Below, piece by piece: positions 2 through 59,182 of a DNA stretch of 64,000 nt. Below the pieces are notes generated by a model. That model saw only the letters and a list, made by a program, of their open reading frames with translations, ran no database searches and had not been told where the DNA came from. A program made the translations under genes and the position numbers. Each line of letters begins with the position of its first letter. Position 1 is the first letter of the stretch. Origin of the DNA: Gammaproteobacteria bacterium (GTDB lineage: Bacteria > Pseudomonadota > Gammaproteobacteria > Pseudomonadales > Azotimanducaceae); NCBI GenBank assembly GCA_026707945.1, contig JAPOVV010000045.1, positions 62,001-126,000 on the forward strand, in the 5' to 3' direction.

Positions 2-769
2 TCCTTAATCGTGTTTGGCATTCTCGGCATCGCGCTTGTCGCGGGTTCAGCCGCAGTTGTCAATCATGTGGCAGACGCCCAGATTGATCGCACGATGGCG
101 CGCACTGACACTCGACCCATCGCGACAGGTCGTATTCGTATTAGGGAAGGGCTTGTATTTGCCGGTTTGCTTGGTACAGCTGGTCTGGTGATTCTGTTCT
201 TTCTAGTCAATCCTTTGTCTGCGTGGTTGAACTTCGCGTCATGGATTGGTTACGCCGTCATTTACACGATGTACCTGAAGCATGCGACATCACAAAATAT
301 CGTACTTGGTGGATTGTTTGGGGCGGCACCACCGCTCTTGGGGTGGACAGCGGTTACGAACTCGATCTCGTTAGATGCGATCTTGCTCGTCTTGATCATT
401 TTCTTGTGGACGCCCCCACATTTTTGGGCGTTAGCGCTTGATCGTCGCGATGAATATGCGAAAGCTCGCGTACCGATGCTACCCAACACGCACGGCGTGA
501 AACACACGTCAAATCAAATCTTCTGGTATACGTTGGTACTCGTGATCGCTAGCGCAGCGCCAAGTTTTTGGGGTTCAAGTGGATTGGTATACCTATGTTG
601 CGCCGCGCTACTTGGCGGAGCGTTTGTTGCTTACGCCTTAGCGTTGCGAAAACGTCCTTATTCGGGATTGACCCAACGGACGTTTAAGTTCTCCATTGTC
701 TATTTGAATCTTCTGTTCTGCGCCGTCTTGGTAGACCACTATGTGGGTGTCTTTGGTTTGTTGACTTAA
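2..769 (+). CDS. cyoE: Protoheme IX farnesyltransferase (heme O synthase), 5'-truncated by window edge
   Basis: This integral membrane prenyltransferase adds a farnesyl group to protoheme to make heme O for terminal oxidases. The frame is open to the window edge, so about 255 C-terminal residues are visible of a protein usually near 290-300. The first prenyl-diphosphate/Mg motif N-x3-D-x3-D (NHVADAQID) is near visible residues 21-29, and the second conserved motif (LDRRDEYAKARVPMLP) lies mid-protein. Multiple hydrophobic helices alternate through the rest. A GTG at position 11 is only an internal codon. The gene converges on proS across an 86-bp gap. A fragment of UbiA is the main alternative, but the KARVPMLP signature favours CyoE/CtaB. 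Confidence 0.93.
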   Translation, partial: SLIVFGILGIALVAGSAAVVNHVADAQIDRTMARTDTRPIATGRIRIREGLVFAGLLGTAGLVILFFLVNPLSAWLNFASWIGYAVIYTMYLKHATSQNIVLGGLFGAAPPLLGWTAVTNSISLDAILLVLIIFLWTPPHFWALALDRRDEYAKARVPMLPNTHGVKHTSNQIFWYTLVLVIASAAPSFWGSSGLVYLCCAALLGGAFVAYALALRKRPYSGLTQRTFKFSIVYLNLLFCAVLVDHYVGVFGLLT

Positions 770-855
770 GCCGACGATCAATCACCACTACATTCCGCGA
801 TTGCTGGTTTGTGTGAAGCCGCTCGATTAGTTTATTGGCTGATCATATTCGCTTT

Positions 856-2547
856 TTAGCTAGCGACTAACCGGCTGATGACGTCGTCCGGTCGAACATC
901 TATCGATTCGCTTCGTTCGTGTTGAAATTCGAACGTACCTTGTTTTAATCCACGGTCGCCAATGGTCACGCGGTACGGGATTCCTATAAGTTCTGCGTCG
1001 TTGAATTTGACGCCAGGACGTTCTTCTCTGTCATCCCAAAGAACTTCAATTCCCTCGCGTTGGCATTCAATATAGAGATTTGAGGCCGCCTGCTCGACTG
1101 CAGTTGAACGCTGCTGGTTAATCGTAACTATGTGCAGCATTGCTGGTGCAACAGCCTTGGGCCACAAAATCCCTTTCTCATCGTGGCATTGTTCTACTAC
1201 GGCAGCAACGAGCCGCGAAACACCCAAGCCGTAGCACCCCATAGTTGGATACAGGTCGTCGCCGTCGGGCATCTGAACCGTCACGTTCATCGACTCCGTG
1301 TACTTTCTACCTAGCTTGAATATGTGTCCAACTTCGATACCACGAGCGAATGCGAGAGGACCGCTTCCATCTGGCGATTGATCACCTGGTTCGACGTTTC
1401 GCAGATCCTCGACACGTCCCTGTGGCGTGTCGCGCAGCCAATTCACCCCTGTCAAATGGAAGCCATTCTCATTTGCTCCACATACGAAATCTGAGAGTAC
1501 ATCAGCGCTACGATCAACAATGTAAGGTACGCCCAACTCGACAGGTCCGATCGATCCGGGGTCAACGTTCAAAGACTTGCTGATTTCTTCATCCGATGCG
1601 AAGCGAAGTGGGGCAATCACTCCGTCTAGGTGGGCTGCTTTTATTTCATTGAGCTGATGATCGCCACGAAGGATCAAAGCAATCAATGAATCGGTGCCAT
1701 GAACCATCAAGGTTTTTACACATCGCGTTGGAGGGATCCCAAGTAACTTGCTGACTCCCTCGATAGTTTTCGCATTCGGCGTTTCAACCCGAGTAAGCGA
1801 TTCCTTAGGTGCTGGTCGCTCTCCATTACTAAGCGCTTCAGCGCGCTCGACGTTAGCACCGTAACCACTGTTCGGCGAATAGGCGATTAGATCTTCACCT
1901 GAATCAGCCAAGACGTGGAATTCCTCGCTGTCGCTACCACCCATCATGCCAGAATCCGCTTGCACGGAGCGATAGCGAAGACCGATTCGATCAAGGATTG
2001 CCGCGTAAGCATCGTGCATTGCTCGATATGTAACGTCGAGTGATTCATCATCTAGATGAAACGAGTACCCGTCCTTCATGATGAATTCGCGTGCACGCAT
2101 CAATCCGAACCTTGGTCGAATCTCGTCGCGGAATTTGGTGTTGATCTGGTAAACACTTAGTGGCAAATCGCGATAGCTTTCCATTGTTTGGCGAAGTACG
2201 TCAGTTACCACTTCTTCATGTGTGGGACTGAAGCAATAGTCCCTCGCGTGTCGGTCGATGATTCGCAGAAGCTCGGGTCCCATCGCATCCCAACGACCAC
2301 TTTCTTGCCAGATCTCTGCTGGTTGTACAACCGGCATGAGCACTTCTTGGGCACCCGTGCGATTGAGCTCCTCACGCACGATCGCCTCAACGTTTTGTAC
2401 CACGCGAAGGCCGAGTGGTAACCATGTAAACAACCCCGAGCCGAGTTGACGGATGAATCCAGCGCGTAGCAATAGCCTGTGTGAGACTACGTCTGCGTTT
2501 GCTGGGTCATCGCGCAATGTCGGCGCGAGTACTTGCGACGCAAGCAC
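856..2547 (-). CDS. proS: Prolyl-tRNA synthetase, bacterial type with editing domain
   Basis: Class II aminoacyl-tRNA synthetase that charges tRNA-Pro. At 563 residues it matches the bacterial long form of about 570. The N-terminus (LASQVLAPTL, then HRLLLRAGFIRQLGSGLFTW) and the motif 2 region (TKFRDEIRPRFGLMRAREF) are typical. Between motifs 2 and 3, about residues 225-380, sits the inserted deacylase domain that clears alanyl-tRNA-Pro. Motif 3 is recognisable as MGCYGLGVSRLVAAVVEQ, followed by the anticodon-binding domain (LWDDREERPGVKFNDAELIG). The chosen start is a GTG; no better upstream start was seen. It is transcribed toward cyoE and is not obviously in an operon. Confidence 0.97.
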   Translation of the reverse strand: MLASQVLAPTLRDDPANADVVSHRLLLRAGFIRQLGSGLFTWLPLGLRVVQNVEAIVREELNRTGAQEVLMPVVQPAEIWQESGRWDAMGPELLRIIDRHARDYCFSPTHEEVVTDVLRQTMESYRDLPLSVYQINTKFRDEIRPRFGLMRAREFIMKDGYSFHLDDESLDVTYRAMHDAYAAILDRIGLRYRSVQADSGMMGGSDSEEFHVLADSGEDLIAYSPNSGYGANVERAEALSNGERPAPKESLTRVETPNAKTIEGVSKLLGIPPTRCVKTLMVHGTDSLIALILRGDHQLNEIKAAHLDGVIAPLRFASDEEISKSLNVDPGSIGPVELGVPYIVDRSADVLSDFVCGANENGFHLTGVNWLRDTPQGRVEDLRNVEPGDQSPDGSGPLAFARGIEVGHIFKLGRKYTESMNVTVQMPDGDDLYPTMGCYGLGVSRLVAAVVEQCHDEKGILWPKAVAPAMLHIVTINQQRSTAVEQAASNLYIECQREGIEVLWDDREERPGVKFNDAELIGIPYRVTIGDRGLKQGTFEFQHERSESIDVRPDDVISRLVAS

Positions 2548-46303: not shown

Positions 46304-46345
46304 ATACGTACTAGCTATCTCAACAGATGTAAGAGGACCACGTTG

Positions 46346-47290
46346 ATGCTTCCTAAAGAGACAGATTTCGATCACCTAAGGTTTGATCCGACACAAGGCG
46401 TTGTTATCCGCGATCCTCCTGGACAGGGGTATGGCTACTGGGCGGGTGGGCATAAGGTCTCATTTGATGAACGTACAAACCAGTTTGTACTTTTCTATCG
46501 AGAACGAACGCCATTAGAAAAGGGGCGAGGCGCGCGCTGTGCGCTTGCTACGAGTTCCAACGGTATCGAATTCGCGGATGTATGGTCCGCAACCAAAGAG
46601 GAATTCGCGGCATCGTCAATCGAGGTAGGACATTGCGTACGAGGATTAGATGGCCGCTGGAAGTTCTATGTCTCATACGAAGTTGAAGGTGCGAGGTATT
46701 GGCGCGTTGATTTGCTCGAAGGAGACGAACTAAATTCGATTCAAGCGCAAGCCAGACGTACCGTCTTTCAACCGCAGGCGTTTGGCCAAGGCTCACTTAA
46801 AGATCCGGTCGTATATGTACGCGATGGGTGCTACTCCGTTTTTCTCGCGGGGGCAAGCACCAATGCGCCGCGTAGAGACGGCGATATTTTCCACGTAGGC
46901 GGCGGCGACGCGACTTTCTTAGCAACGTCGACTGACGGTAAGTACTTCACGTCAATTCGTCGCGTCTTCGAGCCACCGAATAGCGATACGTGGCATGGTC
47001 GCAGGGCGAGAATCAACTCGATCATCAAAGAGAACGACGGGTGGCTCGCGTTCTACGATGGCGGTCGAAATTTCTACGACACGTACGAAGAGTGGTGTGG
47101 ACTTGCGTGGAGTGCGGATGGGATCAAGTACGAACGGTTGGACCAAGTACAACCGTGGATTCAATCGCCTTTCGGTTGTGTTCGTTACGTCTATGCTCAC
47201 GATGCGGGCGAGCAAGTGTTCTTCTACTACGAATATACGCGTGAGGATGGATCACATGATCTACGCGTAAGTGTCGTTAAGCGTCGCTAG
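46346..47290 (+). CDS. Predicted five-bladed beta-propeller protein (glycosidase-like)
   Basis: Protein of 314 residues without a signal peptide. Repeated blade patterns are visible: GGHKVSFDERTNQFVLFYRE, ALATSSNGIEFADVW, GRWKFYVSYEVEGARYWRVD, LKDPVVYVRDGCYSVFLAG, FLATSTDGKYFTSI, NDGWLAFYDGGRNF and GLAWSADGIKYERLD. The KDPVVYVRDG and SSNG/STDG motifs recall GH43/GH32/GH130-type propellers, with acidic residues suitable for sugar binding, but catalytic assignments are not secure. ATG 46346 follows AGAGGA; TTG 46343 is an alternative. The stop shares CTAG with the convergent dihydroorotase. Confidence 0.7.
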   Translation: MLPKETDFDHLRFDPTQGVVIRDPPGQGYGYWAGGHKVSFDERTNQFVLFYRERTPLEKGRGARCALATSSNGIEFADVWSATKEEFAASSIEVGHCVRGLDGRWKFYVSYEVEGARYWRVDLLEGDELNSIQAQARRTVFQPQAFGQGSLKDPVVYVRDGCYSVFLAGASTNAPRRDGDIFHVGGGDATFLATSTDGKYFTSIRRVFEPPNSDTWHGRRARINSIIKENDGWLAFYDGGRNFYDTYEEWCGLAWSADGIKYERLDQVQPWIQSPFGCVRYVYAHDAGEQVFFYYEYTREDGSHDLRVSVVKRR

Positions 47291-48691: not shown

Positions 48692-49573
48692 ATGTATGAT
48701 ATTTCGATGCATAAAGCCCAACCAGTTCAATACATGGAACGCACGCGTCTCTATTACGAGGCGCAAGGATTCGAGCGCGCTTATCAATGGGCGCAGCACG
48801 ATGAAGTGCCGTTCACCCCGCTCAACAAACCACTGAAAGAGTCGCGGGTTGCAATCGTCACAACGGGTGCGCGGTATGACAGATTACTTACGGATCCACG
48901 TTTCGTTGACTCCGGGGACATCAGTGAATTGCCCTCGCATTTGTTCGCTCGCGATCTCGCGTGGGATAAAGAAGCGACACACCTCAACGACTTGGGGTCA
49001 TACCTGCCTGTGCGAGTTCTGCAAAAGTTAGCAGCAGATGGGCACATCCATAGTGTCACGCCACGTTTTCATTGCCTCCCAACTGAGTACAGTCAACGTC
49101 GTACACGCGAAACGGACGCGCCCGAGATTCTCGAACGCTGTCAGGAGGATCGAGCAGATCTCGCTTTGCTGGTGCCGTTGTGACCGGTTTGCCATCAGTC
49201 CGTTGGACTGACAGCACGTCATCTTGAAGCCAATGGTATTCCGACCGTGGTACTTGGGTCGGCGACCGACATCATCGAACACTGTGGTGTTCCGCGTTTT
49301 TATTTCGTCGACTTTCCATTGGGAAACCCTTGTGGGAAGCCGTACGATTTAGAGATGCAGCGAAACATTGTGGGAGCTGCCTTAGATCTGTTAGAAACGG
49401 CCTCGCGACCGCGAACGGTGGTTAAGGACCCCAATAATTGGGGAAGCGACGAATGGCGGCAACGCTACATGGAGATCAAGCCGGAAGATCGTGAGCGAAT
49501 GCTGCAGCAAGGTGAGGAGCGACGTCGTAAGCGCCAACACTTGCGAGAGATCGGTCACACGCGTCAAGATTAG
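48692..49573 (+). CDS. GrdB-family selenoprotein (in-frame TGA read as selenocysteine)
   Basis: I read this as one gene of 293 codons interrupted by TGA at 49181-49183 (codon 164). Both halves are in the same frame. The junction reads LALLVPL-U-PVCHQSVGL, a U-x-x-C redox motif. The following ARHLEANGIPTVVLGSATDI and VPRFYFVDFPLGNPCGKP match the C-terminal part of glycine/sarcosine/betaine reductase selenoprotein B, including the PLGNP element after the second strand. The N-terminal half has YMERTRLYYEAQGFERAYQW and KPLKESRVAIVTTGARYD. A hairpin suited as SECIS follows the TGA. The length is shorter than clostridial GrdB. Catalysed reaction unknown; a thiol/selenol reductase role is inferred. 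A second possible start is ATG 48707. Confidence 0.88.
49181..49213 (+). promoter_or_regulatory. Bacterial SECIS element downstream of the Sec TGA
   Basis: Perfect 7-bp stem TCAGTCC (49195-49201) with GGACTGA (49205-49211) and a three-base loop GTT. The loop starts with G, and 18 bases separate the TGA from that G, inside the usual range for bacterial SECIS elements bound by SelB. The stem is also coding (HQSVGLT). Confidence 0.82.
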
Positions 49574-49623: not shown

Positions 49624-51078
49624 ATGTCGCTTGAGTTTGCGATTGAACTCATCAAATCGACGTTACCTAGGGAATGCGTACTCACTGACGCCACAGCGAC
49701 TGCACCGTTCGAAACGGACGGACTGACCGCATACCGTCAACGACCCCCGGTCGTCACGTTGCCGCGTGATACGAACGAAGTTCGCCAAATCTTGCGGATC
49801 TGCCACGAAACCGGCGTCCCGGTCGTAACGAGAGGCGCAGGAACGGGGTTATCAGGTGGTGCACTGCCTCTAAAAAACGGCGTACTGCTTGTTCTCACAA
49901 AGATGAACCGTATTCTGGAAATCGATGAGGTGGGTTGTACAGCGACGGTTCAACCAGGTGTCACCAATCTTTCGATTTCGCAAGCGGTTGAGGACAAGGG
50001 ACTCTACTACGCGCCAGATCCGTCATCACAAATTGCATGCAGCATCGGCGGAAACGTTGCAGAAAACGCAGGTGGTGTGCATTGCTTGAAGTATGGACTG
50101 ACGCTTCATAACGTGCTGGGCTTAAAAGTGCAGACGATTGAAGGGGACGAGCTCGAGTTAGGCGGAAATGGCTACGAAAGCTCGGGCGTCGAGCTAACTC
50201 CTCTATTCGTTGGTTCTGAAGGCATGTTGGGGGTTGTTACGGAGATAACCGTCAAGTTGCTTCCGACACCGCCGAGTAAAGAAGTACTGCTCGGCGCCTT
50301 CAATGACGTGGAATCTGCTGGTGAGTGCGTGGCTGCGATCATCGCACGAGGCGTCGTTCCCGCTGGACTCGAGATGATGGACGCACTAGCGATTCAAGCA
50401 GCGGAGGATTTTGTCCACGCGGGCTATCCCCGTGACGCAGCAACGATTCTCTTGTGCGAAGTCGATGGCACGAGCGAGCAGGTACGTAGTGAAGCGACAC
50501 TAATACGCCAGCTGATGGAAGCGCATGGAGCAGTCAATATCCGTAGCGCATCAGAACCAGCGGAACGCGACCTTCTATGGCAAGGTCGCAAAGCGGCGTT
50601 CCCCGCAGTAGGTCGGATTTCACCGGATTACTACTGCATGGATGGCACGATTCCGCGACGACATCTAGGCAAGATTCTGTCAGCTATTTCGACATTGGCG
50701 ACTAAACACGAACTGCGTGTCGCGAATGTGTTCCATGCGGGAGACGGAAATCTGCACCCGCTGATTCTTTACGACGCGAGCGACGATGAGCAACTTCATC
50801 GCGCAGAACGCCTTGGCGTCGAGATCCTTGAACTTTGCGTAGAAGTTGGTGGGACCGTAACTGGCGAACATGGCGTTGGTGTCGAGAAGCTGGACCCGAT
50901 GTGTTCTCAGTTTTCAACGCCTGAACTTGAGCAGTTCTTCCGACTTAAGGAAGTGTTCGATGCTAGTGGGCTAATGAATCCGGGGAAAGCGATACCAACG
51001 CTTGCGCATTGTTCCGAGATTAAAGGCATGCACGTCCACGGTGGCAAACTTCCATTTCCGGAACTCGATCGGTTTTGA
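49624..51078 (+). CDS. glcD: Glycolate oxidase subunit GlcD
   Basis: FAD-linked oxidase of 484 residues (E. coli GlcD 499). The PCMH FAD-binding domain is at about 35-215: PVVTRGAGTGLSGGALPLKNGVLLVL, ATVQPGVTNL, YYAPDPSSQIACSIGGNVAENAGG, LFVGSEGMLGVVTEI. The C-terminal substrate domain ends NVFHAGDGNLHPLILYD and GTVTGEHGVGVEK. It oxidises glycolate to glyoxylate with GlcE and GlcF, donating electrons to the respiratory chain. ATG start 50 bp after the selenoprotein; its stop overlaps glcE as TTGA. Confidence 0.95.
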   Translation: MSLEFAIELIKSTLPRECVLTDATATAPFETDGLTAYRQRPPVVTLPRDTNEVRQILRICHETGVPVVTRGAGTGLSGGALPLKNGVLLVLTKMNRILEIDEVGCTATVQPGVTNLSISQAVEDKGLYYAPDPSSQIACSIGGNVAENAGGVHCLKYGLTLHNVLGLKVQTIEGDELELGGNGYESSGVELTPLFVGSEGMLGVVTEITVKLLPTPPSKEVLLGAFNDVESAGECVAAIIARGVVPAGLEMMDALAIQAAEDFVHAGYPRDAATILLCEVDGTSEQVRSEATLIRQLMEAHGAVNIRSASEPAERDLLWQGRKAAFPAVGRISPDYYCMDGTIPRRHLGKILSAISTLATKHELRVANVFHAGDGNLHPLILYDASDDEQLHRAERLGVEILELCVEVGGTVTGEHGVGVEKLDPMCSQFSTPELEQFFRLKEVFDASGLMNPGKAIPTLAHCSEIKGMHVHGGKLPFPELDRF

Positions 51079-52100
51079 CGCAATCTACCGACGACTCAGT
51101 GCGACTGATTGATTCAGTCAATCATGCCGTTGCGCACAAAAAACAACTGTCCATCATGGGGCATGGTTCGAAGACCTACTATGCACGGTCGACCGAAGGG
51201 GATGCACTACAGTCTGCTGATCACGTAGGCGTTATTGAATATCAACCGGAAGAGTTGGTTATTTCGGTACGAGCGGGTACGTCTTTGCGAGATATTGAAG
51301 AAACGCTCGATCAGCATAACCAAATGCTCGCGTGTGATCCACCGCAGTTTTTGGGTAGGGGCACGATTGGTGGAGCGGTTGCCGCCGGTCTGTGCGGACC
51401 TGGTAGACCATGGTACGGCAATCTTCGCGATGCGGTGCTTGGCGTCGAAATAGTTAATGGACTCGGCGAACGATTAAGGTTCGGCGGCTCAGTCATGAAA
51501 AACGTCGCTGGGTTTGACGTATCACGCCTGATGGTTGGGTCGCTTGGGGTATTTGGATTGATTCTGAGCGTCAATTTGCGTGTGCATCCCAAACCTGAAA
51601 CCGAGTGTACGATCGCGCTCGATATGGACTGGAATGATGCGTGGCAAGTCTTAGGTCGAACGATTGCTAAACCTTCAGCCGTTACGGCTACGTGCTATTT
51701 ATCGGGTACGCTCTTCCTTCGACTGAGCGGTAATCGTGTAAGCGTTAAGGCAGCTTGTGCAAGTTTTCCGGGCGCGAAAGAGATGGAGAACGACCTATGG
51801 GTGCAGCTGCGCGATCACAAGCATCCGTTCTTCCTTGAACGCGAGGAGCTGAGACGAACATGGCTCGCTCGTGGTCGCCAAGTGCAGATTTCGGCAGATG
51901 AGCCCTCCCTTATTGAGTGGGCTGGCGCTCAGGTTTGGGCTCACGGGACGGGTGGAACGTCGCCTACGATCGACGAGAGTGATTGCAGTGAACCATTTGA
52001 TCGATCACGCGTAAGTCCAAATGAGGAAACGAAATACGTAAAGCGATTAAGGCGCGCTTTTGATCCTGCTTTACTCTTTAACAGTGATATACGTCTCTAA
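51075..52100 (+). CDS. glcE: Glycolate oxidase FAD-binding subunit GlcE
   Basis: Second FAD-binding subunit, 341 residues (E. coli 350). HKKQLSIMGHGSKTYY, VISVRAGTSLRDIEETL, DPPQFLGRGTIGGAVAAGLCG and VMKNVAGFDVSRLMVGSLG are the GlcE hallmarks. TTG start in a TTGA overlap with glcD; glcF begins 2 bp after its stop. All three genes should be cotranscribed. Confidence 0.94.
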   Translation: MTQSTDDSVRLIDSVNHAVAHKKQLSIMGHGSKTYYARSTEGDALQSADHVGVIEYQPEELVISVRAGTSLRDIEETLDQHNQMLACDPPQFLGRGTIGGAVAAGLCGPGRPWYGNLRDAVLGVEIVNGLGERLRFGGSVMKNVAGFDVSRLMVGSLGVFGLILSVNLRVHPKPETECTIALDMDWNDAWQVLGRTIAKPSAVTATCYLSGTLFLRLSGNRVSVKAACASFPGAKEMENDLWVQLRDHKHPFFLEREELRRTWLARGRQVQISADEPSLIEWAGAQVWAHGTGGTSPTIDESDCSEPFDRSRVSPNEETKYVKRLRRAFDPALLFNSDIRL

Positions 52101-52102
52101 CA

Positions 52103-53263
52103 ATGCGGGTTGAACTTGCGCAAGACCTCATCGCGACTGAAGATGGTCGACGAGCAGAGGAAATTCTGCGCAAATGTGTCCATTGTGGATTCTGCAACGC
52201 AACCTGTCCGACATACAACCTTCTCGGCGATGAACTCGACGGTCCTCGAGGGCGAATCTATTTGATCAAAGGAATGTTCGAGTCGGACGAGGTTGATGAG
52301 AACGCACGGTTACATCTGGATCGGTGCCTAACGTGCCGGAACTGTGAGACCACTTGTCCTTCGGGGGTTGAATACGGCGAGCTCTTAGAACTAGGGCGAA
52401 ACTACATCCAAAAAAGTTCCCCAATTTCGTCGTTACTTGAACGTCTCCTGCTGTGGATCGTTCCTTTCCATCGTCGTCTTCGATTCATGGTGAGACTTGG
52501 GTTCTTGGTTCGGTGGTTGGTACCGGCACCTTTGAAGCGCATGCTTCAGCCAGTTCGGTCAATTCGAATCGAGCAGGACGGTACAGATGCTTCGGTCACG
52601 TTATTGCAAGGCTGTGCTCAACGTGCGATGACGCCGGAAGTCAATCAACACATCGTAGCCTTATTGCAAGAGCGAAATGTTCGGGTGAACCTACGATCGT
52701 CCGAACAATGTTGCGGTGGATTGCATTTACATCTAGGTCGTCACGATCAAGCCATGCGGCATATGACAGCAAACGTTAAGACGCTGTATGCGGAGTCAAC
52801 TAAGACCTACCTCTCGTCGGCGTCAGGCTGCGGCGTAACGGTTAAGGACTATGGTCGGCTACTTGGCACACCAGAAGCGATCGAACTAGCTGCGCGTACG
52901 CGAGACATCTCAGAGTATTTACAGGAATACTCTTTTCAGCGCCACCCGAATATTCAGCGTGTAGCTTTACACATACCTTGCACTCTTCAACACGGTCAAC
53001 GGATTCAAGGACTAATTGAGCAGATTCTCGAACGTACAGGATACGAGCTTGTAAAAGTACGTGACGCTCACCTATGCTGTGGCTCGGCTGGGTCATACTC
53101 GTTGTTACAACCCGAACTGTCCGAGCAGTTGTTAGATCGGAAGCTAGCCTGTCTAGAAGAACATACGCCGGACGTGATCGCCACAGCGAATGTAGGATGT
53201 CATCTTCATCTCAGATCCGGCGCAAATACGCGCGTTGTGCATTGGGTAACGCTCTTGCGCTAG
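52103..53263 (+). CDS. glcF: Glycolate oxidase iron-sulfur subunit GlcF
   Basis: Iron-sulfur subunit of 386 residues (E. coli 407). Two [4Fe-4S] motifs at the N-terminus: CVHCGFCNATCP (about 26-37) and CLTCRNCETTCP (about 76-87). Two CCG-type domains (SEQCCGGLHLHLG near 200; HLCCGSAGSYS near 325) bind a further cluster or heterodisulfide-type site. It relays electrons from GlcD to quinone. Stop shares CTAG with the convergent dsbA-like gene. Confidence 0.95.
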   Translation: MRVELAQDLIATEDGRRAEEILRKCVHCGFCNATCPTYNLLGDELDGPRGRIYLIKGMFESDEVDENARLHLDRCLTCRNCETTCPSGVEYGELLELGRNYIQKSSPISSLLERLLLWIVPFHRRLRFMVRLGFLVRWLVPAPLKRMLQPVRSIRIEQDGTDASVTLLQGCAQRAMTPEVNQHIVALLQERNVRVNLRSSEQCCGGLHLHLGRHDQAMRHMTANVKTLYAESTKTYLSSASGCGVTVKDYGRLLGTPEAIELAARTRDISEYLQEYSFQRHPNIQRVALHIPCTLQHGQRIQGLIEQILERTGYELVKVRDAHLCCGSAGSYSLLQPELSEQLLDRKLACLEEHTPDVIATANVGCHLHLRSGANTRVVHWVTLLR

Positions 53264-53991
53264 CTCGCGTCTTCAGCGATAGGTGTGTCTGTTTCAATCT
53301 CAGCTGCGCTTGGATCGTCAGGCACGATGCTTGGATCGCGGCCCGCCTGAATTTCATCAACTAGCCATTGCGCGGTAGATAGGATTTGACGATTGCCTCC
53401 CCGTGCCGTAATTTGGAATTTATTTGCGATCAATAACGCTGGCACGCCGATGTTTCGCGTATCCACAGCAAGTTGACGACTTGATTCAATTGAACGTGTG
53501 ATGTACCTACCGTTGAAGGCAGATAAAAAGCGATCGCTTTCAATTCCACGATCATGCATGAACTCAGCAATTTGTTCGTCATTAAGGAACGTGATGTTTC
53601 GTTCATGAATGGCATCAAATATTCGCCTATGGTTCTGCTCGAGCAAGCCTTGCGACTCGAGCACGAGATAGGTCTTTGCGAGCCGCGTCGTCAATGTGTC
53701 GACAGCGACGTGGACTCGCTTGAATTCGACGTCCTCCCCTAATCCATCAATCCACCCCGCTAGCATCGGGTCCAAGTTCGAGCAATGAGGACACGCGTAG
53801 CTAAAAAACTCGATGATTTCAATCGGATCATCTCTTAGAGGTCGATCAAGTGTGTTGTAGGTACGTTCGGTACTTGTACCCCACCCAGGAACTAGATTGA
53901 GTGCGTAGAGCGTGCTGTATCCGATCACTAAGACGAGGATCGCGCCGAGCGCGCTTAACAAAACTATGCGAACTCGTTCTACTTTGGTCAT
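53260..53991 (-). CDS. DsbA-like membrane-anchored thiol-disulfide oxidoreductase
   Basis: Protein of 243 residues. The N-terminal TM at about 9-32 (VLLSALGAILVLVIGYSTLYAL) anchors it, possibly without cleavage. The thioredoxin-fold redox motif is YACPHCSNLDP near 71-75 (C-P-H-C as in DsbA). The cis-Pro loop is NIGVPALLIANKF. An acidic tail (SAAEIETDTPIAEDAS) ends it. Probable periplasmic disulfide donor. Its ATG lies 16 bp from a divergent glutaredoxin-like start. Confidence 0.9.
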   Translation of the reverse strand: MTKVERVRIVLLSALGAILVLVIGYSTLYALNLVPGWGTSTERTYNTLDRPLRDDPIEIIEFFSYACPHCSNLDPMLAGWIDGLGEDVEFKRVHVAVDTLTTRLAKTYLVLESQGLLEQNHRRIFDAIHERNITFLNDEQIAEFMHDRGIESDRFLSAFNGRYITRSIESSRQLAVDTRNIGVPALLIANKFQITARGGNRQILSTAQWLVDEIQAGRDPSIVPDDPSAAEIETDTPIAEDAS

Positions 53992-56481: not shown

Positions 56482-57078
56482 TTGAGCGAGGACACTCTAA
56501 ATACGAATCGTCGGTACTTACTTTTAGCGACGACAGGTGTTGCTGCTGTGGGTGTCGTTGGTGCAACGATTCCTTTCGTGCAATCTTGGCAACCGAGCGC
56601 ACGCGCCCGTGCACTTGGTGCGCCAATCAAGGTAAATATTGGAAAACTAAAACCAGGTGAAATCCTAGGACCACTTCCGGCATGGCGTGGTCAACCGATT
56701 TTCATTGTAAATCGAACACCTGCTGCCATCGAGATTCTTGAGAACGAACTGGCGAACTTGGCAGATCCCGATTCGATTGAAAGTGTGCAACCTGAATACA
56801 CCGAGAATCCATATCGTTCACGTAGACCGGAAATTGGGGTATACCTTGGGCTGTGCACACACCTGGGATGCTCACCGAAGTATTACGGCGCGGTACAACC
56901 AGAGGATTTTGAAAGTGACTGGAAAGGCGGCTTCTTTTGTCCGTGTCACGGCTCAAAGTTTGATCTTGCCGGACGTGTTGAAAGGAATCTACCAGCACCG
57001 ACGAATTTAACGGTTCCGCCGCACTACTACGAGTCGGATGAGGTTCTGGTTATTGGTTTAGATGGGCAGAGCGCATAG
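56482..57078 (+). CDS. petA: Ubiquinol-cytochrome c reductase Rieske iron-sulfur subunit
   Basis: Rieske protein of 198 residues. A Tat-like N-terminus NRRYLLLATTGVAAVGVVGA provides the retained TM anchor. The [2Fe-2S] motifs CTHLGCSP (about 131-138) and CPCHGSKFD (about 153-161) contain both Cys, both His and the bridging Cys. It transfers electrons from ubiquinol to cytochrome c1. TTG start; the TAG stop overlaps petB's GTG by one base. Confidence 0.96.
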   Translation: MSEDTLNTNRRYLLLATTGVAAVGVVGATIPFVQSWQPSARARALGAPIKVNIGKLKPGEILGPLPAWRGQPIFIVNRTPAAIEILENELANLADPDSIESVQPEYTENPYRSRRPEIGVYLGLCTHLGCSPKYYGAVQPEDFESDWKGGFFCPCHGSKFDLAGRVERNLPAPTNLTVPPHYYESDEVLVIGLDGQSA

Positions 57079-58340
57079 TGTCTGAAGTCACCGAGAAAGG
57101 TCGTTGGGTGTCGCGCTCGATGCAATGGGTAGACGATCGAATCCCGATAACCGCAACGTTTAAACAACACGCTTCCGAGTATTACGCACCGAAAAACTTC
57201 AACGTCTGGTATGCGATGGGCGCATTAGCGCTCGTCGTATTGGTCATTCAGGTTCTGACCGGTATTTGGCTAACGATGGCGTACGTTCCAACAGGCGAGG
57301 GCGCGTTTGCCAGTGTTGAGTACATCATGCGGGATGTGGATTTTGGATATCTGATCCGCTACATGCACTCGACTGGCGCCTCTGCTTTCTTCGTAGTCGT
57401 TTACTTGCACATGTTTCGAGGTTTCGCATACGGGTCGTATCGCAAGCCGCGCGAACTCCTGTGGTTGATCGGCATGGCGATCTACCTCGTTCTGATGGCT
57501 GAAGGGTTTTTCGGTTATCTCTTGCCATGGGGCAACATGTCATATTGGGGTGCACAGGTGATCGTATCGCTGATTGGTGCGATCCCGTACTTCGGTCCCG
57601 AGCTAATGGAGTGGGTACGCGGAGACTTTGTAATGTCGGGAATCACCCTTAATAGATTCTTCGCATTGCACGTTGTCGCTTTACCACTAATGTTGGTGGG
57701 ATTGGTGTTCTTACACATCGTTGCACTTCATCACGTCGGTTCAAGTAACCCAGACGGGATTGAAATCAAAGCGAAGAAAGACGAAAACGGCGTTCCGCTT
57801 GACGGTATCCCGTTCCATCCGTACTACTCGACAAAAGACTTCGTCGCGATCGTTGTGTTCTTGATCCTGTTCTGCGCGGTAGTCTTCTACGCGCCCGAAA
57901 TGGGTGGTTACTTTATTGAGAAACCAAACTTTGAGGAGGCGAATCCGCTAAAAACGCCTGAACACATCGCTCCTGTGTGGTACTACACCCCGTTCTATGC
58001 GATGCTACGTGCGGCTACGTTCCCATTTCTAGGGATTGATGCCAAGTTTTGGGGTCTGATCATCATGGCGGGTGCGATTTTGATTCCAGCCGCATTGCCA
58101 TGGCTGGATCGAAGTAAAGTCAAGTCCATGCGCTACAAAGGTTGGTTCTCAAAGATTGCGTTAATGAACTTTGTCGCATGTTTCCTGGTTCTCGGTTACC
58201 TCGGAACGATTCCGCCGTCGCCGATCGCCACAGCAACAGCACAAATCATGACAATCGTGTACTTTGCTTATTTCATTCTGATGCCTTGGTACACGACAAT
58301 CGAGCAAACTAAACCTGAGCCCGAGCGGGTCTCGCATTGA
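57078..58340 (+). CDS. petB: Cytochrome b subunit of the bc1 complex
   Basis: Eight-helix cytochrome b of 420 residues. The heme ligands are the His pairs in RYMHSTGASAFFVVVYLHMFRG and RFFALHVVALPLMLVGLVFLHIV. The Qo-site ef loop reads PVWYYTPFYAM near 300, where the textbook motif is PEWY. The Glu therefore is Val, a known variation in some proteobacteria. GTG start overlapping petA's stop (TAGTG); stop overlaps petC's TTG (TTGA). Confidence 0.97.
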   Translation: MSEVTEKGRWVSRSMQWVDDRIPITATFKQHASEYYAPKNFNVWYAMGALALVVLVIQVLTGIWLTMAYVPTGEGAFASVEYIMRDVDFGYLIRYMHSTGASAFFVVVYLHMFRGFAYGSYRKPRELLWLIGMAIYLVLMAEGFFGYLLPWGNMSYWGAQVIVSLIGAIPYFGPELMEWVRGDFVMSGITLNRFFALHVVALPLMLVGLVFLHIVALHHVGSSNPDGIEIKAKKDENGVPLDGIPFHPYYSTKDFVAIVVFLILFCAVVFYAPEMGGYFIEKPNFEEANPLKTPEHIAPVWYYTPFYAMLRAATFPFLGIDAKFWGLIIMAGAILIPAALPWLDRSKVKSMRYKGWFSKIALMNFVACFLVLGYLGTIPPSPIATATAQIMTIVYFAYFILMPWYTTIEQTKPEPERVSH

Positions 58341-59182
58341 GGCGCGGTGAATCAATGAGCGAACCAATTCTCAGTATGACCCGAGCTGTTGCGATCGGAC
58401 TGTTAACCATTGGAATTGGAACACACACACTCGCGGCTGATTCAGATTGGATCATGCAATCGATGTCACCCGACTTAGACGACATTCCATCGTTGCAGCG
58501 TGGCGCGAATCTATATGTAAATTTCTGCCTGGGCTGCCATTCGCTTGAGCATCAACGCTACGAGCGCACTGCTGACGATCTTGGAGAAATTCCGCACGAA
58601 TTGATGGTGGCGAACGTCATTCACACAGGTCAGAAGATCGGTGAGCACATCCAGACAGCAATGTCCAAAGAGGACGCAAAAGGTTGGTTTGGCGCTGCAC
58701 CACCTGATTTGACCATGGTGACGCGGGTGCGCAGTCCTGAATGGGTCTACAACTTTCTACTGACGTTCTACGAGGATTCATCTCGACCACTTGGCGTCAA
58801 CAACAAAGTATTTCCCAATGTAGCGATGCCACACGCTATGCTCTCGTTACAGGGAATTCAGGAAGAGGTCTGCATTGGTAATCGCCCGATTGATCTTCTC
58901 GACGTTCAAACGGCACTTGAACAAGATCGTGTTGAATCGATCAAGGAAGGTGGTGTCGAGAATTGTGGTGAACTGTCACTAATTCCTGGGTCGGGAATGT
59001 TCAGCGTTGAAGAGTACGAACAGGCTGCTTTCGACATCGCCAATTTCCTTCACTATGTTGGCGATCCAACACGTGCGGAACGGGAAGCGCTTGGCAAGTA
59101 CGTCATTGGGTTCTTGCTAGTCCTTCTTGTTCTTGCGTATTTCTTAAACCGTAATTACTGGACAGACGTTAAAAAGAATTGA
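58337..59182 (+). CDS. petC: Cytochrome c1
   Basis: Heme c subunit of 281 residues. Signal region about 13-33 (MTRAVAIGLLTIGIGTHTLAA). CLGCH near 64-68 binds heme c, and the Met ligand is probably in VAMPHAML. The C-terminal TM (GKYVIGFLLVLLVLAYFLNRNYW) anchors it. TTG 58337 overlaps petB as TTGA, like other pairs in this window, while ATG 58355 gives a tidier signal peptide; both are credible. Confidence 0.96.
   Translation: MRRGESMSEPILSMTRAVAIGLLTIGIGTHTLAADSDWIMQSMSPDLDDIPSLQRGANLYVNFCLGCHSLEHQRYERTADDLGEIPHELMVANVIHTGQKIGEHIQTAMSKEDAKGWFGAAPPDLTMVTRVRSPEWVYNFLLTFYEDSSRPLGVNNKVFPNVAMPHAMLSLQGIQEEVCIGNRPIDLLDVQTALEQDRVESIKEGGVENCGELSLIPGSGMFSVEEYEQAAFDIANFLHYVGDPTRAEREALGKYVIGFLLVLLVLAYFLNRNYWTDVKKN

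Follow-up and report, generated by a model that had tools for sequence, protein, structure and literature searches.

Whether the in-frame TGA in the gene studied here ends that gene or is read as selenocysteine, and what the protein would do in the latter case, are the two questions raised by this locus. The gene lies in a window of 64,000 nucleotides (the whole stretch of DNA that was analysed) from a gammaproteobacterium of the Azotimanducaceae (Table 1). Its frame, starting at ATG 48692, contains a single TGA and is then open up to the TAG at 49571-49573. Mechanical ORF calling splits it into a 163-aa ORF (48692-49183) and a 108-aa orphan (49247-49573), exactly as the first-pass annotation had expected of a gene caller, and catalogues may therefore under-count the gene. 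That annotation had also noted two same-phase frames separated by one TGA and followed directly by a U-x-x-C redox motif. Both observations stand: the joined product has 293 residues, and with TGA taken as selenocysteine the context of Sec164 is LLVPLUPVCHQS, in which the motif is present as UPVCH. Among five same-frame TGA junctions in the window (filter: at least 80 and at least 60 aa, with no other ORF over most of the pair), a UxxC motif occurs only at this one, the other four lying, by eye, close to or right at an end of some other predicted ORF; a chance arrangement is excluded by the PrdB profile and by the relatives described below.

Table 1. Positions of the predicted selenoprotein gene, its parts and its neighbours in the window
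Feature	Position	Strand	Remarks
Predicted stand-alone PrdB-like selenoprotein gene	48692..49573	+	293 aa including Sec164; terminator TAG
Conserved N-terminal stretch, residues 9-40, PVQYMERTRLYYEAQGF..YQWA	48716..48811	+	From alignment
Predicted Sec164 codon, in-frame TGA of the UPVC redox motif	49181..49183	+	From codon column; TGA of four PrdB genes aligned
Coding part 3' of TGA	49184..49570	+	Purifying selection equal to that on the 5' part
SECIS-type hairpin TCAGTCC-GTT-GGACTGA	49195..49211	+	Stem 49195-49201 with 49205-49211, loop 49202-49204
C-terminal extension, residues ~253-293	49448..49570	+	Past the end of two full-length PrdB aligned
glcD, glcE, glcF (glycolate oxidase)	49624..53263	+	First gene starts 50 bases past the selenoprotein stop
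bc1 genes: Rieske, cytochrome b, c1	56482-59179		

Reading of the in-frame TGA

When contigs were searched with peptide patterns, none of which crosses the TGA, 19 loci with 48-86% identity to the window protein were found; their metagenome-assembled genomes carry titles of Gamma-, Alpha- and Deltaproteobacteria and of Chloroflexota groups. In each of the 19, the matched stretch is interrupted by a single stop codon, which is a TGA at this very position. Profile searches of two overlapping genome sets, one from the class (369 genomes) and one from the phylum (397 genomes), found the family in 8 and 17 genomes, respectively, its own included. In 26 further loci (L041-L066) the codon is TGA in 6 cases and Cys, mostly within NCPVCHQ, in 20. 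The column and its surroundings are gap-free in the alignment of relatives, and over all 46 genes compared it holds TGA (26) or Cys (20) and no other codon meaning. The first-pass annotation had proposed asking whether homologues extend across the TGA and whether the column is conserved as a true stop; homologues do span it, and the column is filled by Sec or Cys only.

The two parts of the gene were also compared with those of its five nearest relatives. Third-position differences per codon amount to 0.504 before the TGA and 0.491 after it, and silent and residue-changing codon differences stand at 319:141 before and 255:107 after. Purifying selection thus acts with equal strength on either side, and translation evidently continues past the TGA.

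Bacterial SECIS elements, which can be host-specific, are hairpins immediately 3' of the TGA whose loop contains G and U. A potential hairpin of this type is found 12-28 bases after the TGA of the window gene. Codons 169-173 inside it are invariant in the window gene and the five nearest relatives, whereas most codons around them vary; in L013 the closing T-A pair is replaced by C-G. In 24 TGA genes (the divergent genes L047 and L048, which carry UPAC, are left out here and included in the count of 26), 97.2% of cells are paired over the six named pairs, with both-sided changes at three pairs in 18 cells. None of 500 shuffles was as high in paired fraction, in the number of changed cells or in covariation score, whereas in the other two of five measures, pairs with both-sided change and further pair types, the shuffles were not exceeded. 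Slid versions of the hairpin are at most 40.3% paired. The same pairs in the Cys genes (20, of which 18 are distinct) form in 66.7% of cells, no better than in shuffles, and the loop G-T, present in 26/26 TGA genes, is seen in 4/20 Cys genes. The window hairpin alone folds slightly better than shuffled sequences (z -1.20, 31/200 as good), and one TGA gene, L022, keeps 3/6 pairs. As judged from this comparison of genes, the hairpin is a SECIS-type element of the TGA genes.

The genome from which the window was taken (3.80 Mb in 117 contigs, 96.19% complete) was scanned for the selenocysteine machinery, as the first-pass annotation had suggested, and all four components are present. The tRNA-Sec gene scores 71.1 bits (cut-off 47), in agreement with ARAGORN; selA (542.8 bits) is located directly before selB (412.8 bits), and selD scores 259.8 bits, all above their cut-offs. 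By eye, a TnpB-like transposon protein lies just upstream of selA-selB (L037 ~117-1289, minus strand, contig C9). SelD occupies the C-terminal portion of a frame of 745 aa (L038:1501-2397, contig C31) whose N-terminal part has, by eye, the look of an NADH dehydrogenase-type flavoprotein, and its N-terminal motif RCGGCGAK has Cys and not Sec.

By ARAGORN anticodon, tRNA-Sec occurs in 6/6 genomes with a TGA copy and in 1/18 genomes with Cys copies only (Fisher p 5e-5), the rows not being independent in that 10/18 Cys-only genomes belong to one genus (g367). ARAGORN, run on 20 matches, identified the strong ones of G265, G361, G314, G091, G491 and G613 as tRNA-Sec with a UCA anticodon and assigned the best matches of 12 Cys-only genomes, as well as the second match of G491, to tRNA-Ser; the best match of the Cys-only genome G295 falls on a tRNA-Gly, and four Cys-only genomes have no tRNA-Sec match at E 1e-7. 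A line at 59 bits between tRNA-Sec and other matches, which gives the same 6/6 against 1/18, was drawn after the scores were known. At the Rfam tRNA-Sec cut-off of 47 bits, 13/18 Cys-only genomes count too and the association is gone (p 0.28); it is the ARAGORN anticodons alone that settle the matter. The Cys-only exception, G613, presumably uses its tRNA-Sec for Sec elsewhere.

A second, distant PrdB/GrdB-like TGA gene with a UPAC motif was observed in G265 (L079:5142-10332, contig C42), where frames that by eye resemble selA and selB begin slightly more than 1 kb further on, with the tRNA-Sec gene next in line. The same kind of UPAC gene occurs in G361 (L080), with a selA-like frame ~2.8 kb further on; its first part, at 43.1 bits, is above the Pfam GRDB cut-off.

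From these comparisons, TGA 49181-49183 almost certainly encodes selenocysteine. The UGA would be translated by the bacterial Sec system, that is, SelA, SelB, SelD and tRNA-Sec acting with the SECIS-type hairpin, to yield a 293-residue selenoprotein with U-P-V-C-H. A real stop at this codon, leaving either a recent pseudogene or a functional truncated protein of 163 aa, is what the split made by mechanical ORF calling would suggest, but a TGA kept without any other stop in 26 genes over several phyla, a column with Sec or Cys only and equal selection before and after the codon make it extremely improbable. Reading of UGA by some other route, such as reassignment to Trp or near-cognate suppression, for which no supporting evidence was found, is hardly conceivable either in a genome with tRNA-Sec, selA, selB and selD, where TGA terminates 3/9 neighbouring ORFs, glcD among them; besides, the 20 non-TGA homologues have Cys, not Trp, and the hairpin covaries in the TGA genes only.

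Relationship to PrdB and GrdB

The best NCBIfam match of the joined product is TIGR04483, the PrdB subunit of D-proline reductase (residues 41-247, E 2.9e-24, 85.8 bits; equivalog cut-off 300). This match spans the TGA; taken separately, the two halves still match, at profile positions 20-144 and 150-231. The GrdB, GrdF and GrdH models are all weaker than PrdB, with the best likeness in their last ~150 residues, and the protein stays below their cut-offs (12.3 bits against 22 for PF07355 GRDB, 28.3 bits against 65.45 for TIGR01918). The assignment to the GrdB family in the first-pass annotation thus holds in the sense of a distant homology, whereas the best profile is that of PrdB, with which the form UxxCH is shared. 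GrdB is said to bear a UxxCxxC motif (PMC13188914), and the window protein has UPVCHQSV at this place, with no second Cys. Canonical GrdB was rejected as a candidate on the scores below both cut-offs, the lack of UxxCxxC and the absence of a detected GrdE/PrdA-type partner in the genome.

In four Bacillota PrdB genes from plasmid records (three annotated as prdB and one in an unannotated record), TGA is found in UGTCHR and aligns with Sec164, at 25-29% identity. The window protein extends past two full-length PrdB at either end: residues to ~21 and from ~253 have no counterpart in them, and residues 22-40 show no clear similarity. Both terminal extensions are conserved inside the stand-alone branch, and W255 and G274 are invariant in a 20-row alignment. 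The gene is very probably a Sec-read stand-alone relative of PrdB: the homologous region, the Sec column and UxxCH are common to both, but the window gene falls far under the equivalog cut-off and has extended ends, no adjoining prd genes and no PrdA found in its genome.

In a tree of 52 rows (with an arbitrary root and long branches for L023 and L025), the window gene belongs to a clade of 22 rows, 21 Sec and 1 Cys (support 98/98), and the sister clade of 22 rows consists of 21 Cys and 1 Sec (support 99/95); the two are joined at support 98/96. On these alignments, the Sec members of the stand-alone PrdB branch are mainly in the clade of the window gene and the Cys members mainly in its sister. 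Three Sec/Cys state changes are required on the whole tree, and two if well-supported branches alone are counted.

Two individual cases were observed on this tree. The 5.4 Mb genome G491 has two Sec members, L049 and L065, one in each sister clade. In G554, whose best tRNA-Sec-like match is a tRNA-Ser, a Cys member (L050:1816-1869) is located deep inside the Sec clade and keeps 5/6 hairpin pairs and a CGTGA loop; this hairpin resembles a SECIS relic left behind when Sec changed to Cys.

Proteins named by NCBI 'glycine/sarcosine/betaine reductase selenoprotein B family protein' on Roseomonas and Haematobacter plasmids are 41-48% identical to the window protein, are also stand-alone and fall in the same branch, in the Cys sister clade; they contain NCPxCHQ, with Cys where the window protein has Sec. 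The branch also resembles a group already described from the ocean. PrdB-labelled UxxC selenoproteins were reported in 2005 as the third most abundant family of the Sargasso Sea set, with 42 genes, and were assigned a proline reductase role (PMC1088965). The GOS survey of 2008 reported 235 Sec and 110 Cys forms of PrdB (PMC2398784), and in a later GOS study proline reductase made up 6.4% of selenoprotein genes (PMC9402790). Like the branch analysed here, the group is described as PrdB-related, with UxxC, coexisting Sec and Cys forms and high abundance in the surface ocean (PMC1088965, PMC2398784), and from this description we infer that it represents the same stand-alone branch. With these reports and the NCBI-named Cys relatives, the window gene would be one more member of the known PrdB-labelled group. 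The first-pass annotation had called the selenoprotein hidden, which is true of ORF calling, where the gene is split, but not of the literature, where a PrdB-labelled UxxC group was described as early as 2005. Among the titles and abstract starts of the matches listed, a search whose coverage leaves out most subscription journals, no function was seen for stand-alone PrdB/GrdB relatives in aerobes.

Fold, partners and possible function

An AlphaFold2 model built from 20 sequences, with Cys in place of Sec, has a mean pLDDT of 90.9 and a pTM of 0.90 and represents an alpha/beta fold. Sec164 is predicted between strand 157-161 and helix 165-180, at the start of the helix, which is a usual site for a nucleophile of low pKa. 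With this predicted model, Foldseek returned no solved structure at E <= 0.001 (best E 0.02), and the TM-score by query length was at most 0.31 among the best 50 of 899 matches; a sequence search of the PDB gave a best E of 0.35.

No match to PF09338, the pyruvoyl partner family PrdA/GrdE, was detected in the 96.19% complete genome, while the positive control worked: both prd-bearing plasmid records have matches, annotated prdA genes among them. With the partner family not found and the control working, a role of the window protein as proline or glycine reductase is unlikely. PF04723 (GrdA) has no match in this genome, and no control genome matched either. Around two Cys relatives on alphaproteobacterial plasmids, no prd or grd genes were found within 8 kb on each side (in an incomplete gene table); one of them adjoins a SelO gene and the other cobalamin genes.

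The first-pass annotation had placed the gene in a context of bc1 and glycolate oxidase, and both gene sets are confirmed. The selenoprotein gene and glcDEF form a possible operon; the other neighbour is a dihydroorotase on the minus strand. The five nearest relatives retain the glcDEF arrangement, which was not seen in the other 14 of the 19 loci. Neighbours are not conserved beyond these five (394 ORFs, 37 loci and the window), and the widest neighbour cluster, the gene itself and an overlapping frame aside, covers 7/38 loci and includes the ABC-transporter ATPase frame of the window. The glcDEF link and any substrate are thus weakly supported. A domain scan of 20 neighbour frames, one of which is a piece of a relative itself, revealed some carboxylate-related proteins elsewhere, namely FAA hydrolase (two lineages), CoA-transferase III (one genus), acyl-CoA dehydrogenase and an AMP-binding enzyme, and many others unrelated to carboxylates, such as DNA ligase-like, MatE, AraC-type regulator and polyprenyl synthetase proteins. 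Two further genes of the window are also kept in the five nearest relatives. One encodes a 315-aa protein after ABC-transporter-like genes (46343-47287), for which Pfam gave no match at E 0.001. The other, located tail to tail with glcF on the minus strand (53260-53991), encodes what is, by eye, a DsbA-like protein that has a hydrophobic segment at its N-terminus.

By homology to PrdB and GrdB, Sec164 would be the catalytic selenolate and Cys167 the resolving thiol. Tentatively, and with less than even confidence, we suggest an attack by the selenolate on an alpha-substituted carboxylate or carbonyl compound with reductive cleavage of the C-X bond, as in PrdB and GrdB but without a pyruvoyl subunit, after which a general thiol reductant would regenerate the selenolate by way of a Se-S bond. 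The place of the pyruvoyl subunit may perhaps be taken by the protein's own N- and C-terminal extensions. In this lineage, the selenoprotein may feed or protect the oxidation of glycolate or other 2-hydroxy acids by the adjacent glcDEF. A parallel by description is FarB of Synergistota, a GrdB-like selenoprotein for which cleavage of the fluoroacetate C-F bond has been proposed, with a GrdB-type Sec attacking an alpha-substituted carboxylate that is not an amino acid; FarB differs, however, in belonging to an anaerobe and in working with FarE, a GrdE-like second protein-B component (PMC10838667).

The main rival to C-X cleavage is a Sec164-Cys167 pair that serves as a general thiol-disulphide or peroxide-reducing centre, with a thioredoxin- or peroxiredoxin-like function and no C-X chemistry. 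The UxxC motif would suit such a centre, the nearby bc1 genes suggest respiration, and the GOS authors starred PrdB in their table among homologues of known thiol oxidoreductases or of thioredoxin-like fold proteins (PMC2398784, Table 2). Yet the profile homology is to PrdB and weakly to GrdB, with no thioredoxin-type family matched, nor is there a thioredoxin-type protein among the best 50 of 899 Foldseek matches; we regard this function as plausible without being probable. A genuine PrdB subunit of D-proline reductase acting with an unlinked PrdA could be argued from the best profile, TIGR04483, and from UxxCH, which has the same form as the UGTCH of PrdB. It is nevertheless very unlikely in view of a score of 85.8 bits where the equivalog cut-off is 300, only 25-29% identity to the four PrdB, and a PF09338 search that found nothing in the 96%-complete genome while matching in the two prd-bearing plasmids. 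Coming back to reductive C-X cleavage, its extension to the branch as a whole is more speculative and, taken in full, rather improbable. A large PrdB branch, mostly in lineages taken as aerobic, would have dropped the pyruvoyl subunit and become a one-subunit selenol reductase with the terminal extensions as substrate site, cleaving C-X bonds next to carboxylates (of 2-hydroxy, 2-amino or halo acids) in respiring cells, with several Sec/Cys switches that track tRNA-Sec.

PrdB-labelled UxxC genes are reported among the commonest selenoprotein genes of surface-ocean DNA under the name of proline reductase (PMC1088965, PMC2398784). Since no PrdA/GrdE partner, which the reaction needs, was found in the genome, this label probably misleads in the case of the window gene and perhaps across its branch. 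Natural Sec/Cys pairs are another asset of the branch, including the genome with a Sec member in each clade (G491) and the Cys member with hairpin remains (L050), for the question of what Sec buys.
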